Source of the DNA: an uncultured Mucispirillum sp.
GTDB taxonomy: Bacteria > Chrysiogenota > Deferribacteres > Deferribacterales > Mucispirillaceae
Direction of reading: 5' to 3'
Assembly: GCA_944324495.1 (NCBI GenBank)
Contig: CALUWN010000001.1
Span: 124,001 to 188,000, forward strand
Length of the DNA: 64,000 bases
The position numbers and the translations under genes are program-made. The notes beneath the pieces were generated by a model. That model saw only the letters and a list, made by a program, of their open reading frames with translations. It had not been told where the DNA came from and made no database searches. Below, piece by piece: positions 48,361 to 64,000 of the stretch. Positions within the stretch are counted from its first letter, which is position 1. Every line of letters begins with the position of its first letter.

Positions 48361-48541
48361 AATCCCCTGCGGTGTTCGCTTAGCATTACGACACGCTGGA
48401 GCCAACACTTTATAATTTTTTGTTGCGATGCATGTTGTGGTGTGCAGGTCGGGCTTGTACTCGAAAGCCTAAAGCAACACAGAGCGACACCTGTTTACAA
48501 CAGGCTACAGTGTCCATTGCAATACGGCATATGCGGGGGTT
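48361..48541 (+). ncRNA. ssrS: 6S RNA
   Basis: This roughly 180-base stretch is far richer in G and C than its flanks. It matches 6S RNA: a 5' arm CCCCTGCGGTGTTCG and a 3' arm near CGGCATATGCGGGGG that pair as a closing stem, and GAGCC near 48400. The downstream arm carries CGGGCTTGTACTCGAAAGCC (48450-48469), like the 3' half of the E. coli RNA. 6S RNA mimics an open promoter and sequesters sigma-70 RNA polymerase in stationary phase. Position after zapA and near the 5-FCL gene is the conserved ssrS neighbourhood. A TATAAT at 48358-48363 overlaps the predicted 5' arm, so the exact 5' end is uncertain. No clear terminator is seen after it. Confidence 0.88.
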
Positions 48542-48604
48542 AAAAAATTATTTCGTTGTTTGATAAAAACACGGATTTTTATAGATTTATCGGATATTTT
48601 TTAA

Positions 48605-58209: not shown

Positions 58210-58262
58210 TTGATAATTTATATCAAAAATTTCTTGCAATTAATTTATTTATAGTGTATAGA
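58210..58262 (+). promoter_or_regulatory. Candidate promoter and operator for the hutW-like operon
   Basis: TTGCAA at 58234-58239 and TATAGA at 58257-58262 are 17 bases apart. Just upstream is the inverted repeat TTGATA-ATTTA-TATCAA (58210-58226), a possible repressor or activator site. It is not a proper FNR box (spacing too long) and only loosely resembles a Fur box. The 253-base gap holds nothing else I recognise. Confidence 0.42.
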
Positions 58263-58300: not shown

Positions 58301-59704
58301 ATGGATACTTTTCATAAAAAGATAGAATATATTAATCCAGAAGAAAATTTTGAAAGATATTGTGTTAATGAAAGTGAAAATGTTATTGTAGATGCTTTTA
58401 GTAAAAAAACAGCAGTTCATGCAGGGCTTATGGATAGGTTTGCACCAAAAGAGCAGACTCAGGAAGTTTTAAAAAATGTTTTAAATCAAGAAAGGAATAA
58501 TAGAACTGCTGCATATATTCATGTTCCATTTTGTGAAACCCACTGTTTATACTGTGGATTTTATAATCAGCCTTATAGAAAAGAGCAGAGTAGAATATAT
58601 ACAGATGTTTTAATTCAGGAAATTAAACTTTGGGAAAATACTACTGCATTTAAAACAAAACCAATTAATGCTTTATATTTTGGTGGCGGAACTCCTACAG
58701 CCTTAGAAGTGGAAGATATATCAAGGCTTTTAACTTATATTCGTAATACATTTCCTCTTGCAAATGACTGTGAAATCACTATGGAAGGTAGAATATCTAA
58801 TATGACAAGAGATAAAGTTGAAGCATATCTTCAAGGGGGAGTAAACAGATTTTCTTTAGGAGTGCAAAGTTTTAATACTGATTTAAGACGCTCAATGGGT
58901 AGAAGAAGTGACAGGGATACAATCATAGAAAGAATTAATATGATAAAAGAATATAATCAGGCTGCTGTTGTGCTTGATTTAATATATGGGTTTCCTAATC
59001 AGACTATGGATATTTGGGAAGATGATATAAAACTTGCTCAAAGTTTAGAAATAGATGGGTTTGACTGTTACCAGTTAAATGTATTTCCAAACACCCCTCT
59101 TGGTAAACGTATTGCAGATGGCAGTATGAACCCTGCCTTAAATGTTAAAGAGAAAACAGAGCTGTTTATAAAAAGTGTAGAACTTATGCAGAAGGCACTA
59201 TACACAAGAATTAGTGTAAACCACTGGCAGAGAACTACAAGAGAAAGAAATATATATAACAGGCTTGCTCGTGGTTATGCCAGCTGCCTTTCTTTTGGTG
59301 CAGGAGCAGGTGGAAATATTAATGGGTACAGCTATATGATACTGCGTGATTATCAAGGCTATTTAGCAGCTGTGAAAAATGGCGTAAAACCAATTATGGG
59401 TATAAGCATACCAGGTGAAAATTACAGCATGTATAAAGAAATAAGTGAATATTTTGAAACAGGTTATTTAGATTTAGCATATTTAGAAAATAAATATAAC
59501 CTGCCACTTACTGATATTTGCAGCAGGTTATTAAGCCAGTGGGAAAATGCAGGTGTTATTAAATATGAAAATAATAAAATTATTTTAACACTTGCAGGTC
59601 AGTTTTGGTTTGTAAACCTTTCACAGCTTTTGCAGGAATATATTAAACTGACTTTGCAGTTTAACAGTAGTAATAATTTAACAGGTGAAAAGGTGAGTTT
59701 ATGA
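58301..59704 (+). CDS. hutW: HutW/ChuW-like radical SAM protein (putative anaerobic heme utilisation)
   Basis: The 467-residue protein resembles the HemW/HutW class of radical SAM enzymes. The Fe-S site is Cys78-x3-Cys82-x2-Cys85 in IHVPFCETHCLYCGFY, followed by LYFGGGTPTALE, FSLGVQSFN and LIYGFPNQT. It is longer than HemW and has about 65 residues before the radical SAM core, as in HutW/ChuW. ChuW of E. coli O157 opens heme without oxygen. The adjacent TonB-dependent receptor favours the heme-utilisation subgroup, but substrate is inferred. It has an AGGAAG ribosome site and its own candidate promoter, and overlaps the receptor gene by ATGA. Confidence 0.8.
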   Translation: MDTFHKKIEYINPEENFERYCVNESENVIVDAFSKKTAVHAGLMDRFAPKEQTQEVLKNVLNQERNNRTAAYIHVPFCETHCLYCGFYNQPYRKEQSRIYTDVLIQEIKLWENTTAFKTKPINALYFGGGTPTALEVEDISRLLTYIRNTFPLANDCEITMEGRISNMTRDKVEAYLQGGVNRFSLGVQSFNTDLRRSMGRRSDRDTIIERINMIKEYNQAAVVLDLIYGFPNQTMDIWEDDIKLAQSLEIDGFDCYQLNVFPNTPLGKRIADGSMNPALNVKEKTELFIKSVELMQKALYTRISVNHWQRTTRERNIYNRLARGYASCLSFGAGAGGNINGYSYMILRDYQGYLAAVKNGVKPIMGISIPGENYSMYKEISEYFETGYLDLAYLENKYNLPLTDICSRLLSQWENAGVIKYENNKIILTLAGQFWFVNLSQLLQEYIKLTLQFNSSNNLTGEKVSL

Positions 59705-61791
59705 TAAAAATAGTCGTTTGTACTGTTTTAATATTATTTATAAGTTTTAATACTTATGCTCAGGAAGAAAATCATATAAAAACTACAGCAGTAAAAGTAA
59801 CTGCTACAAAAGTTGAAAAAGAACTTTTAGAAGTGCCTTCATCTGTTTCTATAGTAACAGAAGAAGATATTAAAAAATCTTCAGCTAGAACAGTTGGTGA
59901 ACTTTTGCAGGATGTGCCGGGTGTGCAGATTTCAAATTCTGGAGGTCAGGGTTTAAAAAGAATATCACTTAGAGGAGAGGGCGTTAATAGAACATTAATA
60001 TTAATTGACGGCCAGCAGATTGTTGAAAATAAATCAATGGATGGTACAGCATTAATGATAGATACTGCTTTAATTGAGCGTATAGAAATTATTCGTGGGC
60101 CATCATCTGTGCTTTATGGTTCTAATGCTATTGGTGGTGTTATTAATATTATTACTAAAAAAGGTGGTAAAAAGCCAATAGAAGGCTCTATTAACCTTTC
60201 TTATAACGGTGCTTCACAAGGTCATTCTGAATCTGCTTCTATTTTTGGAAAAACTCATGGGGTAGAATACAGAGTTACAGCATCAAACAATATGCAGCAG
60301 CAGTTAAGAACACCTGTTGGATTGGTACCGTATTCTGCTTTTGAACAGCAAAATTATAGTGCATATTTAGCGTATAATTTTAATGATAACTATAAACTAG
60401 GCGCAAGTTATGATTATTTTACTTCAGATATATCTTCAGGCAGTCAGGCTGTAGGGTATGAAAAATTTTATGTGGATTTACCATTGTGGTCTCGCCAAAA
60501 AGCAGCATTATTTTTTGAAGTAAAAGAAGCTGTATCTTTTATGCCAAAACTTAGGCTTGATGTATTTTATCAGCAAAGCCATAAAAAAATGCATAACCAT
60601 GTGGAGCTTGACCCAAATGTAGTATTTATGCCAGCAGTAATGGATAACTATGCAGATAATTATAATAACCAATGGGGATTACAGCTTCAAAGCGACTGGG
60701 CTATAAGCGACCATACATATATTATTGCAGGCTATGAATTTAATTATAATATTTTAGATGCTGATACAAGTGTTGATTCTACAAGTACTATCATAGATAC
60801 TATGAACTACAATAAATATGTAAAAAACTACGGCTATGAACAGGTGCATGCTTTATATGCTCAGGCAGAATCTTACCTTCCTTTAGATTTTACATTATTT
60901 TATGGAGTAAGGTGGACATATAACACTGCAAATATGGAAAAAGCAGAAGGGGAAAAGGTAGATAAAGCTACAGGCAGTTCATTACCTTTAAGTGTGGAAG
61001 ATATAGGAAGTACTGGTATTTCTTCAACTAATGCTCCAGTATTTGCAGCAGGTATCATGTGGTCTGGAATAGAAAATTTTAGTGTAAGGTTTAATTTTTC
61101 CCAAGGCTTTCGTTCGCCTAATTTACAGGAAAGGTATTTGTTATCATCTATGGGCGGAGGTACAATTTACCCTAACCCTGATTTAAAATCTGAAACAAGC
61201 AATAATTTTGAGTTTGGTATTAGATATAATGATTATGGTGTTGGTTTAGATGCTGTGTACTTTGTATCACTTGCAGATAACTATATAGCACAAGTGCCAG
61301 TTAGTACAGGTTCTTCTGCTACAAAATATAAAAATGTATCAAACGCTTTAACCCATGGTGCAGAGCTTTCTTTATCTTATACATCACCTATTGGGCTAAA
61401 ACCCTATACTTCACTTACCATAATGCAAAGAAGGTATAGTGATAATGGTGTGGATACATGGAAAACTGGCGTACCTTTAGTTTCAGGCAGAGCAGGGCTT
61501 GCATATTTACACACATTTAATGATTATGTTGATTTATCTATTGATTTATTCAGCAGATTTGCAAGTGAAACCATAGACAGCCTTGATTCTATCCATTCAG
61601 AGTTTACATCAGACTTATATTATGCACCGTGGGGCACAGCAAATATAGCAATTAGTGTAGATTTTGGTAAGGATAGACAATATAGCTTGTCTACAGAAGT
61701 TTATAACCTGTTGAATACACTATATAAAACATCTGTAGATATATATGAACCGGGCTTATATGGAGCCGTAAAATTTTCGGCAGCTTTTTAA
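59701..61791 (+). CDS. TonB-dependent outer-membrane receptor
   Basis: The 696-residue protein has a signal peptide (cleavage after TYAQ-like residues near 20) and a TonB-box region near VKVTATKVEKELLEVPSS. A plug domain follows (VGELLQDVPGVQIS, RGPSSVLYGSNAIGGVINIIT near residues 137-157). The C-terminal barrel includes FRSPNLQERY and NPDLKSET, related to the FRAP and NPNL boxes of heme, cobalamin and siderophore receptors. The conserved His found between those boxes in classic heme receptors is absent here. The last residue is Phe. ExbB/ExbD/TonB are not in the window. Start overlaps hutW by ATGA. Confidence 0.9.
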   Translation: MIKIVVCTVLILFISFNTYAQEENHIKTTAVKVTATKVEKELLEVPSSVSIVTEEDIKKSSARTVGELLQDVPGVQISNSGGQGLKRISLRGEGVNRTLILIDGQQIVENKSMDGTALMIDTALIERIEIIRGPSSVLYGSNAIGGVINIITKKGGKKPIEGSINLSYNGASQGHSESASIFGKTHGVEYRVTASNNMQQQLRTPVGLVPYSAFEQQNYSAYLAYNFNDNYKLGASYDYFTSDISSGSQAVGYEKFYVDLPLWSRQKAALFFEVKEAVSFMPKLRLDVFYQQSHKKMHNHVELDPNVVFMPAVMDNYADNYNNQWGLQLQSDWAISDHTYIIAGYEFNYNILDADTSVDSTSTIIDTMNYNKYVKNYGYEQVHALYAQAESYLPLDFTLFYGVRWTYNTANMEKAEGEKVDKATGSSLPLSVEDIGSTGISSTNAPVFAAGIMWSGIENFSVRFNFSQGFRSPNLQERYLLSSMGGGTIYPNPDLKSETSNNFEFGIRYNDYGVGLDAVYFVSLADNYIAQVPVSTGSSATKYKNVSNALTHGAELSLSYTSPIGLKPYTSLTIMQRRYSDNGVDTWKTGVPLVSGRAGLAYLHTFNDYVDLSIDLFSRFASETIDSLDSIHSEFTSDLYYAPWGTANIAISVDFGKDRQYSLSTEVYNLLNTLYKTSVDIYEPGLYGAVKFSAAF

Positions 61792-61809
61792 GAATAAAGG
61801 AGCAAAAAA

Positions 61810-62355
61810 ATGTATAAAAACTTAAAACATCACTGGAGTATACAAGAGCTTGTAACAATAGGTGTTTTTGCAGCTGCTGCAAAAGTAATAACAATGGTTG
61901 TTGCTTTAGCAGGTGGTGGAATGAACCCTGTTACTCTGCTTATAAAAAACCTTATATTTACTACTTTTTTCATAGTTATGCTTTACAAGGTAAGAAAAAG
62001 TGGAACGATTATGCTTTTTACATTTGTATCATTAATAGTATCACTGCTTTTGATGGGGGCAGAAGCTTCCACCTCTTTAGGAATGTTTATGGCTTCATTT
62101 ATTGGTGAGTTTTTTATACTTCTTTTTGGTGGTATGAAGAATAAATATGCTCCAATTATTGGTGTGGCAGCTTTTGATTTATCTTACAGAGTGCTTTCTA
62201 TGTTTATAGCTTATATGGTTATGAGAGAAACACCTGAAATTGTATATGCTGTTATACCTATTATTGCTATAGGGTATCTAGGAGCTGTAATTGGGTTATA
62301 TACAGGAATAAAAGCTGTTAAGGAGTTAAGGTATGCAGGAATCGTTCGCAGTTAA
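61810..62355 (+). CDS. ECF transporter S component (substrate-binding membrane protein, Trep_Strep-like)
   Basis: The 181-residue, strongly hydrophobic protein has about six membrane segments and begins SIQELVTIGVFAAAAKVITM, the usual first helix of ECF S components. The overall pattern resembles the Trep_Strep/MptD subgroup, which has no settled substrate. It has an AAGGAG ribosome site and is followed by EcfT with a 23-base overlap, so S, T and A parts form a dedicated (group I) importer. Its position after a TonB receptor suggests it takes over the same ligand in the periplasm; this is inference. Confidence 0.78.
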   Translation: MYKNLKHHWSIQELVTIGVFAAAAKVITMVVALAGGGMNPVTLLIKNLIFTTFFIVMLYKVRKSGTIMLFTFVSLIVSLLLMGAEASTSLGMFMASFIGEFFILLFGGMKNKYAPIIGVAAFDLSYRVLSMFIAYMVMRETPEIVYAVIPIIAIGYLGAVIGLYTGIKAVKELRYAGIVRS

Positions 62356-63136
62356 TACAAGTTTATCTGTTAAAAATAATATTCAATTAAAAGGTTTATA
62401 TTTAATAGATGTTAGAACAAAGCTCATTATTACAGCATTTACTTCGCTTGCTGCTATTATATTAAGCAGTATATATTCTCAAATAGTGCTTTTAGCTGCT
62501 TCATTTATATATGCATTATATATGAGAAAACCAAAAGTAATGGTTCTTACTTATCTTTTTGTAACTATTATTATGATAATTGCTGTTACAAGCATATATA
62601 TAATAAATTATTTTACAAATTTTATGCAGGGCAGGTCATATTTTGCCATAACAGTTCCTTTTATGCGTATGGTCACTATGGTAAATGTAGTGCTTCCCTT
62701 AGCTTTTACTACAAATATACAAAGTATATTAACAGCACTAAAAAGTTTTAATCTGCCATTATTTATCTACCTGCCAGTAGCTGTAATGATAAGGTTTATA
62801 CCTGCTTTTATAAACGATATAAAGCAGATAATGCAGTCGCTTGCAACAAGGGGTATTGAAGTAAAATTTATTACTCTTTTAAAGCAACCTGTAAAAATGG
62901 GACGCTACCTTTTTATGCCACTGCTTTTTAGGTCTTTAAGAGCTTCAGAAGAATTGGGAATAGCTGCTGAATTAAAAGGAATAGGAAACGATGTAAAAGT
63001 AACACCGTATAAGAGATTATCGTTTTCTATAAATGATTTATTGCTTCTTATAAGTTTTGCAACAGTATTAGTAAGTGCATTTTTTGTACAAAGCTATATT
63101 GAAGTGCCTGAAAGCTTAAGGAGTTTACATAGATGA
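62333..63136 (+). CDS. ecfT: ECF transporter T component (EcfT)
   Basis: The 267-residue membrane protein starts with a soluble stretch and the conserved LIDVRTKLIITAF, then four or five helices. Two coupling motifs that contact the ATPases are seen: ATRGIE near residue 178 and AELKGIG near 215. The gene overlaps the S component by 23 bases, with AAGGAG in the right place for ATG at 62333, and overlaps the ATPase gene by ATGA. It transmits ATPase movement to the S component. Confidence 0.88.
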   Translation: MQESFAVNTSLSVKNNIQLKGLYLIDVRTKLIITAFTSLAAIILSSIYSQIVLLAASFIYALYMRKPKVMVLTYLFVTIIMIIAVTSIYIINYFTNFMQGRSYFAITVPFMRMVTMVNVVLPLAFTTNIQSILTALKSFNLPLFIYLPVAVMIRFIPAFINDIKQIMQSLATRGIEVKFITLLKQPVKMGRYLFMPLLFRSLRASEELGIAAELKGIGNDVKVTPYKRLSFSINDLLLLISFATVLVSAFFVQSYIEVPESLRSLHR

Positions 63137-64000
63137 TAAGGTTAGAAAATGTAACATACAAATACCCATATCAAAATAAAGAGGCTGTAAAAAATATTAA
63201 TTTATCAGTTAAATCTGGTGAAGTGGTGGTTTGTACTGGTGTCAGCGGATGTGGCAAAACTACACTTATTAGGCTTATTAATGGGCTTTGCCCTCATTAT
63301 TATAAAGGTGAATTAAGTGGTAATGTATTTATTTGTAATGAAAATACAAAAGAAAAAACCATAGGAGAGCTTTCAAGTTATACAGGCTCACTTTTTCAAG
63401 ACCCAGAACAGCAGTTTTTCGCATTAAATGTGGATGATGAGCTTGCATTTGCTTTAGAGTGCAAGGGATTAGATGCAGATACAATAAAAAAAGAAATAAA
63501 TAAAACAGCTCATGAATTTAAAATACAGCATATTTTATCATCATCTGTAAATGATTTATCAGAAGGGCAGAAACAAAAAGTTGGGCTTGCAGGTATAATA
63601 TTACAAAAAGCAAAAGTCATTATTTTAGATGAACCTACTGCTAATTTAGATGTGGAATCAACTGATGAATTAGCAGAGAAAATAAAATATTTAAAATTAC
63701 AAGGTTATGCCATTTTAATTGTAGACCACAGGCTTTACTGGACAAAAGATATAGCAGATAGATTTATAGTTATGAGTAAAGGCGAAATAGTAAAAGAAGG
63801 TGATTTTAGTATTTTACTTAATAATGAATTTAGAAAAATATATGGTTTAAGAGATATAGAAATTACTGATAATCGCAGCACGCTGGCAGATTATAAAAAC
63901 AGCAGTAAAAATATTATTAATATTGAAAACCTTTCATTTAACTATAAGGGTAAAGAAAATCTTTTTAATAATGCATCATTTACTGTTCCTTTTGGAGTAA
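63133..64000 (+). CDS. ecfA: ECF transporter fused double ATPase (3' end cut off)
   Basis: The frame opens at ATG 63133, overlapping the EcfT stop (ATGA), and runs off the window after about 289 residues. The first ATPase domain is complete: Walker A GVSGCGKTT near residues 38-46, Q-loop LFQDPEQQFF, signature LSEGQKQKVGLAG, Walker B VIILDEPTANLD and VDHRLYW with the switch His. Near residue 259 a second domain starts (NIENLSFNYKGKENLFNN), so both EcfA ATPases are on one chain. It energises the S-T pair upstream. Confidence 0.9.
   Translation, partial: MIRLENVTYKYPYQNKEAVKNINLSVKSGEVVVCTGVSGCGKTTLIRLINGLCPHYYKGELSGNVFICNENTKEKTIGELSSYTGSLFQDPEQQFFALNVDDELAFALECKGLDADTIKKEINKTAHEFKIQHILSSSVNDLSEGQKQKVGLAGIILQKAKVIILDEPTANLDVESTDELAEKIKYLKLQGYAILIVDHRLYWTKDIADRFIVMSKGEIVKEGDFSILLNNEFRKIYGLRDIEITDNRSTLADYKNSSKNIINIENLSFNYKGKENLFNNASFTVPFGV

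Follow-up and report, generated by a model that had tools for sequence, protein, structure and literature searches.

How would heme cross the inner membrane of an anaerobic bacterium with two membranes, if the operon that appears to serve its uptake encodes an importer of the energy-coupling factor (ECF) type? The question is raised by a locus at the end of the stretch analyzed here (the window), 64,000 nucleotides that correspond to positions 124001-188000 of contig C1 in a Mucispirillum genome (G000; Deferribacterota, Mucispirillaceae; 2.43 Mb in 62 contigs, 98% complete). In this locus a HutW-type radical S-adenosylmethionine (SAM) enzyme is encoded together with a TonB-dependent receptor and an ECF importer composed of a substrate-binding S component, a T component and a fused A-A ATPase. 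The original prediction had read these genes as an iron or tetrapyrrole acquisition path built around a heme-opening-type enzyme, and that reading is supported by the HutW score, by the gene association and by the ExbB and TonB genes found downstream. It is very probable, in our estimate, that this one operon encodes the whole path from heme to iron in an anaerobic diderm, with the ECF unit as its inner-membrane importer.

A HutW-type enzyme and an ECF importer in one operon

All five frames of the predicted path, one of them cut by the window edge, were found at the proposed place, on the + strand and in the proposed families. They are hutW, encoding an anaerobilin synthase-type radical SAM methyltransferase (58301-59704, 467 amino acids; Radical_SAM and TIGR04107); a heme-receptor-like TonB-dependent outer-membrane receptor (59701-61791, 696 amino acids; TonB plug and barrel); the S component (61810-62355, 181 amino acids with six predicted long helices; PF09605, Trep_Strep/MptD); the T component (62333-63136, 267 amino acids; CbiQ, 70.7 bits against a cut-off of 25); and the A-A ATPase (63133-64000, 477 amino acids), the frame of which ends 566 bases past the window. 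From hutW onward these genes are separated by a 4-bp overlap, an 18-bp gap, a 23-bp overlap (S/T) and a further 4-bp overlap. Past the edge the operon continues on the same strand, with gaps of 3 to 15 bases, into a HutX-flavodoxin fusion of 405 amino acids (L002:10582-11799), exbB (L002:11803-12411), exbD (L002:12420-12806) and tonB (L002:12813-13535); locus L002 runs past the window edge, and its coordinates equal the window position minus 54000. The search for ExbB and TonB that the original prediction had proposed was therefore answered directly downstream. Given the family scores and the conservation of such loci across genomes, a chance clustering of these genes can be ruled out.

HutW scored 499.7 bits against the HutW/ChuW model TIGR04107 (equivalog cut-off 400), and fell under the cut-offs for HemW (TIGR00539, 172.7 versus 205.4) and HemN (174.4 versus 324.95), so that an identity as HemN or HemW was rejected; the same genome encodes HemW separately, on contig C7. 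A grouping with the HemW coproporphyrinogen-type enzymes, which had been named as a possible refutation, was thus not found. The radical SAM motif CxxxCxxC, present as CETHCLYC, is intact in all 18 HutW proteins compared. Two Mucispirillum contigs encode proteins that share 97% and 95% identity with it, one further match is weak (23%), and among solved structures HemN (1OLT) and NocN come nearest in sequence. HutW would be expected to make anaerobilin from heme.

The S component matches PF09605 at 35.3 bits (cut-off 28.7), and its AlphaFold2 model has six long helices (predicted local distance difference test score, pLDDT, 84; predicted template modeling score, pTM, 0.79). When this model was compared with VIA-align, the seven best chains were all ECF S components or S-type subunits of transition-metal transporters, with Z from 12.7 to 8.2, although Z below about 13 may reflect an arrangement common in helical proteins; the next row stood at Z 5.6, and the S-type matches span most of the model. 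The A-A ATPase carries two ABC_tran domains over its full frame, with the Walker A, signature and Walker B motifs each present twice. One operon thus holds an S fold, a T component with a CbiQ domain and two ATP-binding cassette (ABC) ATPase units, and sequence and fold together establish S, T and A-A as an ECF unit. In the interval from hutW to tonB, by contrast, no gene for a periplasmic binding protein (PBP) or FecCD permease, as expected of an importer of the HmuTUV type, was found. Away from the heme operon, the genome carries one more ECF T gene (C3:120844-121476).

The two halves of the fusion both have relatives with heme-related roles. The HutX half scored 136.9 bits against TIGR04108 (cut-off 110) and matches solved proteins of the ChuX/HutX type, and the flavodoxin half scored 162.9 bits against PF12641 and 95 against the BilS model, below the cut-off of 155 for the latter. 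Aligned with the heme-bound FldH of Fusobacterium nucleatum (8G64, 89.9 bits), the flavodoxin half places His367 at the position of the FldH heme ligand His134, and this histidine is kept in 10/10 proteins compared. FldH has been shown to carry heme to HmuW and to reduce anaerobilin (PMC10404700). In two loci of family f10, HutX and the flavodoxin are separate adjacent genes (Pfam checked on one, L032), and therefore the fusion unites pre-existing partners. The start of the fusion is rich in histidine (L002:10582-10700), with 10 His in the first 60 residues; five Mucispirillum proteins have 10 to 12 in this stretch, and the proteins of L030 and L031 have none. This segment is possibly a store for heme or metal.

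Conservation of the operon and exchange of its importer

TIGR04107 was exceeded in 19 of the 384 genomes sampled, and all 19 HutW-bearing loci were read. Seventeen of these genomes belong to the same phylum as Mucispirillum, and the remaining two are G271, of another phylum, and G285. Among the 17 loci, eight have the order HutW, receptor, S, T, A-A, HutX, flavodoxin, ExbB and ExbD followed by TonB, although in the two f10 loci the frame in the place of TonB gave no match to the TonB of the window operon; none of the eight has frames of the PBP-FecCD-ATPase type between HutW and the operon end. In the other nine (L034-L042, all of family f6, which is of the same taxonomic order as Mucispirillaceae) the situation is reversed, with PBP-FecCD-ATPase-type frames and no ECF genes. 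There the order is receptor, flavodoxin (L036), HutW and HutX, followed in L036 by the PBP, FecCD, an ATPase and an ABC-2 pair; Pfam was checked on L036 only, the other eight loci being matched by order and length, and in two of the loci a frame on the opposite strand was taken at the flavodoxin spot. The f6 loci share with the Mucispirillum operon the receptor, HutW, HutX and ExbBD-TonB (upstream, in 8 of the 9), but carry the PBP-FecCD-ATPase genes and the ABC-2 pair where that operon has the ECF genes. This ABC-2 ATPase/permease pair, which ends the PBP-type loci (L036:4693-6257, with equivalents throughout L034-L042), possibly exports excess heme or anaerobilin.

The S component follows HutW closely. 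Its profile matched in 11 of the 384 genomes, and in all nine cases with enough contig around the match it lies inside a HutW operon; the remaining two matches (G002 and G008) are on short contigs that end inside the receptor gene, and in these incomplete genomes no HutW over the cut-off was found elsewhere. The same operon was also to be sought in other genomes, and it was found in several, one of them of another phylum: in G271 the order is HmuY (144 bits), receptor, HutW, S, T, A-A and flavodoxin, with HutX alone on a different contig. A further sample around G271, apparently made up in large part of the outside genomes already covered, brought no new case (1 of 386 genomes, G271 itself), and within the phylum of G271 the count is 1 of 13. 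A plasmid search with S returned no match. In G004 and G007, of the same genus as the window and 96 and 98% complete, there is no S, HutX or HutW over the cut-off, and the operon is therefore patchy within the genus.

In trees of HutW a single branch parts the proteins of ECF loci from those of PBP loci, with support of 100/100 without G271 and the outgroup HemW and of 99/100 with both. The ECF side unites Mucispirillaceae with f10, which belongs to another class, even though it is the PBP family f6 that shares an order with Mucispirillaceae. Such a tree would fit transfer of the cassette as a unit, or an ancient duplication followed by loss. The program flagged long branches, which make the placement of G271 and G285 unsure.

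The ligand of the ECF importer

Given that the S gene is associated with HutW wherever the contig suffices, and that relatives of the operon have a binding-protein importer in its stead, we infer that the S component binds heme. The imported heme is more likely a source of iron: ferrochelatase was present in 12/12 genomes checked, G000 included, and the cell can therefore probably make heme.

A number of observations weigh against heme as the cargo, or against the ECF unit as its sole carrier. The fold match of S says nothing on the ligand; no Foldseek match of the S model reached E 0.001, no relative of the S family was found among the PDB sequences, and S lies far under the NCBIfam MptD cut-off (TIGR02185, 25.1 versus 76.45) while belonging to PF09605, and thus forms a separate branch. 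In G285 a related HutW, placed on the ECF side of the tree, occurs in a genome that shows no S match; its contig is 3.7 kb long and has HutW and ExbB among its recognized genes. The best NCBIfam model for the receptor is that for hemin (TIGR01785), but at 201.8 bits the score is below the cut-off of 316.85, and the G271 receptor scores higher on the B12 model (172.2) than on the hemin model (146.2). The residue between the FRxP and NPDL motifs, where known heme receptors have a histidine that ligates heme in the barrel, is Met484 in 6/6 Mucispirillaceae and His in 8/8 other receptors aligned (f10, f6 and G271); this alignment comprised 14 receptors, with L033 (two frames), L038, L039, L042 and the L069 and L082 fragments omitted. 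Methionine can also ligate heme iron, and the exchange could therefore be either a loss of the ligand or a changed preference. Finally, G000 has two strong FecCD genes, on C36 and C4, the latter adjoining an FmdE gene and of unassigned substrate, and in G003 a cluster of TonB, FecCD and binding-protein genes stands a few kb upstream of hutW, so that outside G271 there may be a second heme route beside the ECF importer. The L033 receptor itself, from G049, is broken into two frames that overlap (L033:7012-9134), unlike its close relative in L032, through either a frameshift or an assembly error.

Might the ECF unit instead import cobalamin or a precursor, and merely share its operon with heme genes? 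The T component is CbiQ-like, B12 importers of the ECF type exist in Gram-negative bacteria (BtuM), and the B12 score of the G271 receptor points the same way; a vitamin such as cobalamin had also been named as a counter-possibility in the original prediction. However, B12 uptake is encoded elsewhere in G000, by the C36 cassette (receptor, TonB, binding protein, ATPase and FecCD), which stands under two cobalamin riboswitches and whose receptor has its highest score with the B12 model (194, versus 89 for hemin), whereas no cobalamin riboswitch was found in L002, with the hutW operon, or in L081; the S gene, moreover, goes along with HutW. Cobalamin was accordingly rejected as the ECF ligand, and we regard this explanation as highly improbable. 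The two riboswitches are divergent (L099:3185-3582), lying between the B12 cassette and a lipoprotein-like gene of 560 amino acids on the opposite strand.

The FecCD genes bear on a different proposal, in which the cargo of the ECF unit is a tetrapyrrole other than heme (protoporphyrin or coproporphyrin) or a metal (cobalt or nickel) and heme enters through a FecCD importer encoded elsewhere. The unassigned C4 importer of G000 and the cluster upstream of hutW in G003 would suit such a division of labor, and heme as the ligand of S is, after all, deduced from gene context. But the only FecCD match in G271 is weak (30.9 bits, Pfam cut-off 26.5) and its single T gene lies inside the HutW locus, which makes the ECF unit the obvious inner-membrane route in a genome that nevertheless has HutW and HmuY. 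Conversely, G007 has a FecCD gene similar in score and length to that on C4 but no HutW, HutX or S, and such an importer therefore need not imply heme breakdown. With the exchange of ECF for PBP-FecCD genes within the HutW locus of relatives also opposed to it, this proposal seems to us improbable.

A third possibility is that heme is imported mainly as a cofactor, with HutW acting as a heme chaperone or as a detoxifier of the surplus. HemW-like relatives are heme chaperones. Surplus free heme is, moreover, described as harmful (PMC10404700). HutW, however, is over the equivalog cut-off of the degraders and not over that of HemW, ferrochelatase suggests that the cofactor can be made within the cell, and the regulatory site considered next suits iron supply; we give this possibility hardly any credence.

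Upstream of the operon, about 75 bp before hutW, lies a Fur-like palindrome, TTGATAATTTATATCAA (58210-58226, no strand assigned), just ahead of a -35-like TTGCAA (58234-58239). A Fur site had been among the features to look for, and a 15-bp core within two mismatches of TGATAATNATTATCA is conserved upstream of the operon in 6/6 Mucispirillaceae, and in 0/2 of the f10 loci. Among 300 shuffles of each upstream, the best score was reached by 8 for L002, 1 for L028, 0 for L027, 10 for L029 and 0 each for L030 and L031. Genome-wide there was no excess of Fur-like sites (113, versus 143 for a reversed-pattern control), and the case therefore rests on the conserved position, which makes control of the operon by a Fur-type repressor probable.

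The proposed pathway and its relation to known systems

Heme import for its iron, the reading preferred here, would proceed in three steps. The receptor, powered by the co-encoded ExbB-ExbD-TonB, would take heme over the outer membrane, as its family and neighbors suggest. The membrane-embedded S component would then capture heme directly, and the dedicated T and A-A components would move it inward, a step that would need no periplasmic binding protein, none being encoded in the operon. In the cytoplasm, by analogy with characterized homologues, the HutX half of the fusion would take over the heme, HutW would use radical SAM methylation to open the ring and free Fe(II), and the flavodoxin half, being FldH/HmuF-like, would supply heme and electrons and reduce the toxic anaerobilin. 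A more specific version holds that heme passes the diderm envelope without any soluble binding protein, from the receptor to a high-affinity S component; that methionine in place of histidine in the Mucispirillum receptor could suit ferrous heme in the anoxic gut; and that the cassette, with delivery and anaerobilin reduction joined in one chain by the HutX-flavodoxin fusion, moved as a unit between distant lineages. This version we offer tentatively, as plausible but falling somewhat short of probable.

For a streptococcal heme transporter, too, an ECF make-up of S, T and A components is reported, and we know of ECF importers for heme only from Gram-positive bacteria. In Staphylococcus lugdunensis such import has been demonstrated: LhaSTA resembles the Mucispirillum importer in its ECF S, T and A components and in supplying heme as an iron source, and is iron-regulated (PMC7299338). 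Its host, however, is a monoderm, the path described there involves no outer membrane or TonB receptor, and there is one separate A gene as against the fused A-A here; according to the same text, heme S components have little sequence in common (PMC7299338).

The enzymes, in contrast, have counterparts in diderms. In F. nucleatum, likewise an anaerobic diderm, the hmuTRUVWF locus as described combines a TonB receptor with a HutW-type enzyme and a flavodoxin, HmuF, which serves heme trafficking and anaerobilin reduction, and related clusters carry exbB, exbD and tonB; but its inner-membrane importer is HmuTUV, of the binding-protein type, and HmuF is a standalone protein whereas the flavodoxin here is joined to HutX (PMC10404700). 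Gram-negative HutW operons with binding-protein importers are thus already published (PMC10404700). The hutWXZ genes of Vibrio cholerae and the chu genes of Escherichia coli O157:H7 share with the operon studied here the HutW/ChuW enzyme and a HutX-type heme carrier, and Vibrio adds the heme oxygenase HutZ (PMC12670364), whereas no gene of the window operon matched a heme oxygenase.

Within the open-license PMC literature no paper was found that unites a heme ECF importer with HutW or a TonB system, and the main text of the Mucispirillum genome paper (PMC5285517) makes no mention of heme, TonB or ECF. Heme import by ECF transporters being known from Gram-positive bacteria, what appears to be new is its putative pairing with a TonB receptor and HutW, which comparative genomics backs well. 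If this is true, no ECF-type heme importer has to our knowledge been known before from an outer-membrane bacterium, nor one linked to the opening of heme without oxygen. The operon would also give a candidate substrate, open to testing, to a branch of an S family that Pfam labels hypothetical, and it suggests a route by which a resident of gut mucus draws iron from host or dietary heme. With the same enzymes standing beside an ECF or a binding-protein importer within one phylum, the loci offer a natural experiment on importer exchange.

Two neighboring features complete the picture of the locus and window. Beyond the window, 71 bases after tonB, begins a lipoprotein-like gene that belongs to no known family (298 amino acids, L002:13607-14503); its relatives in L028 (4373-5647) and L029 (495-1820) have 424 and 441 amino acids, and the L002 protein is without much of their C-terminal part. 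The gene could be a cell-envelope partner of the operon or unrelated to it. Farther upstream, the window carries a 6S RNA gene at 48361-48543 (87.7 bits).
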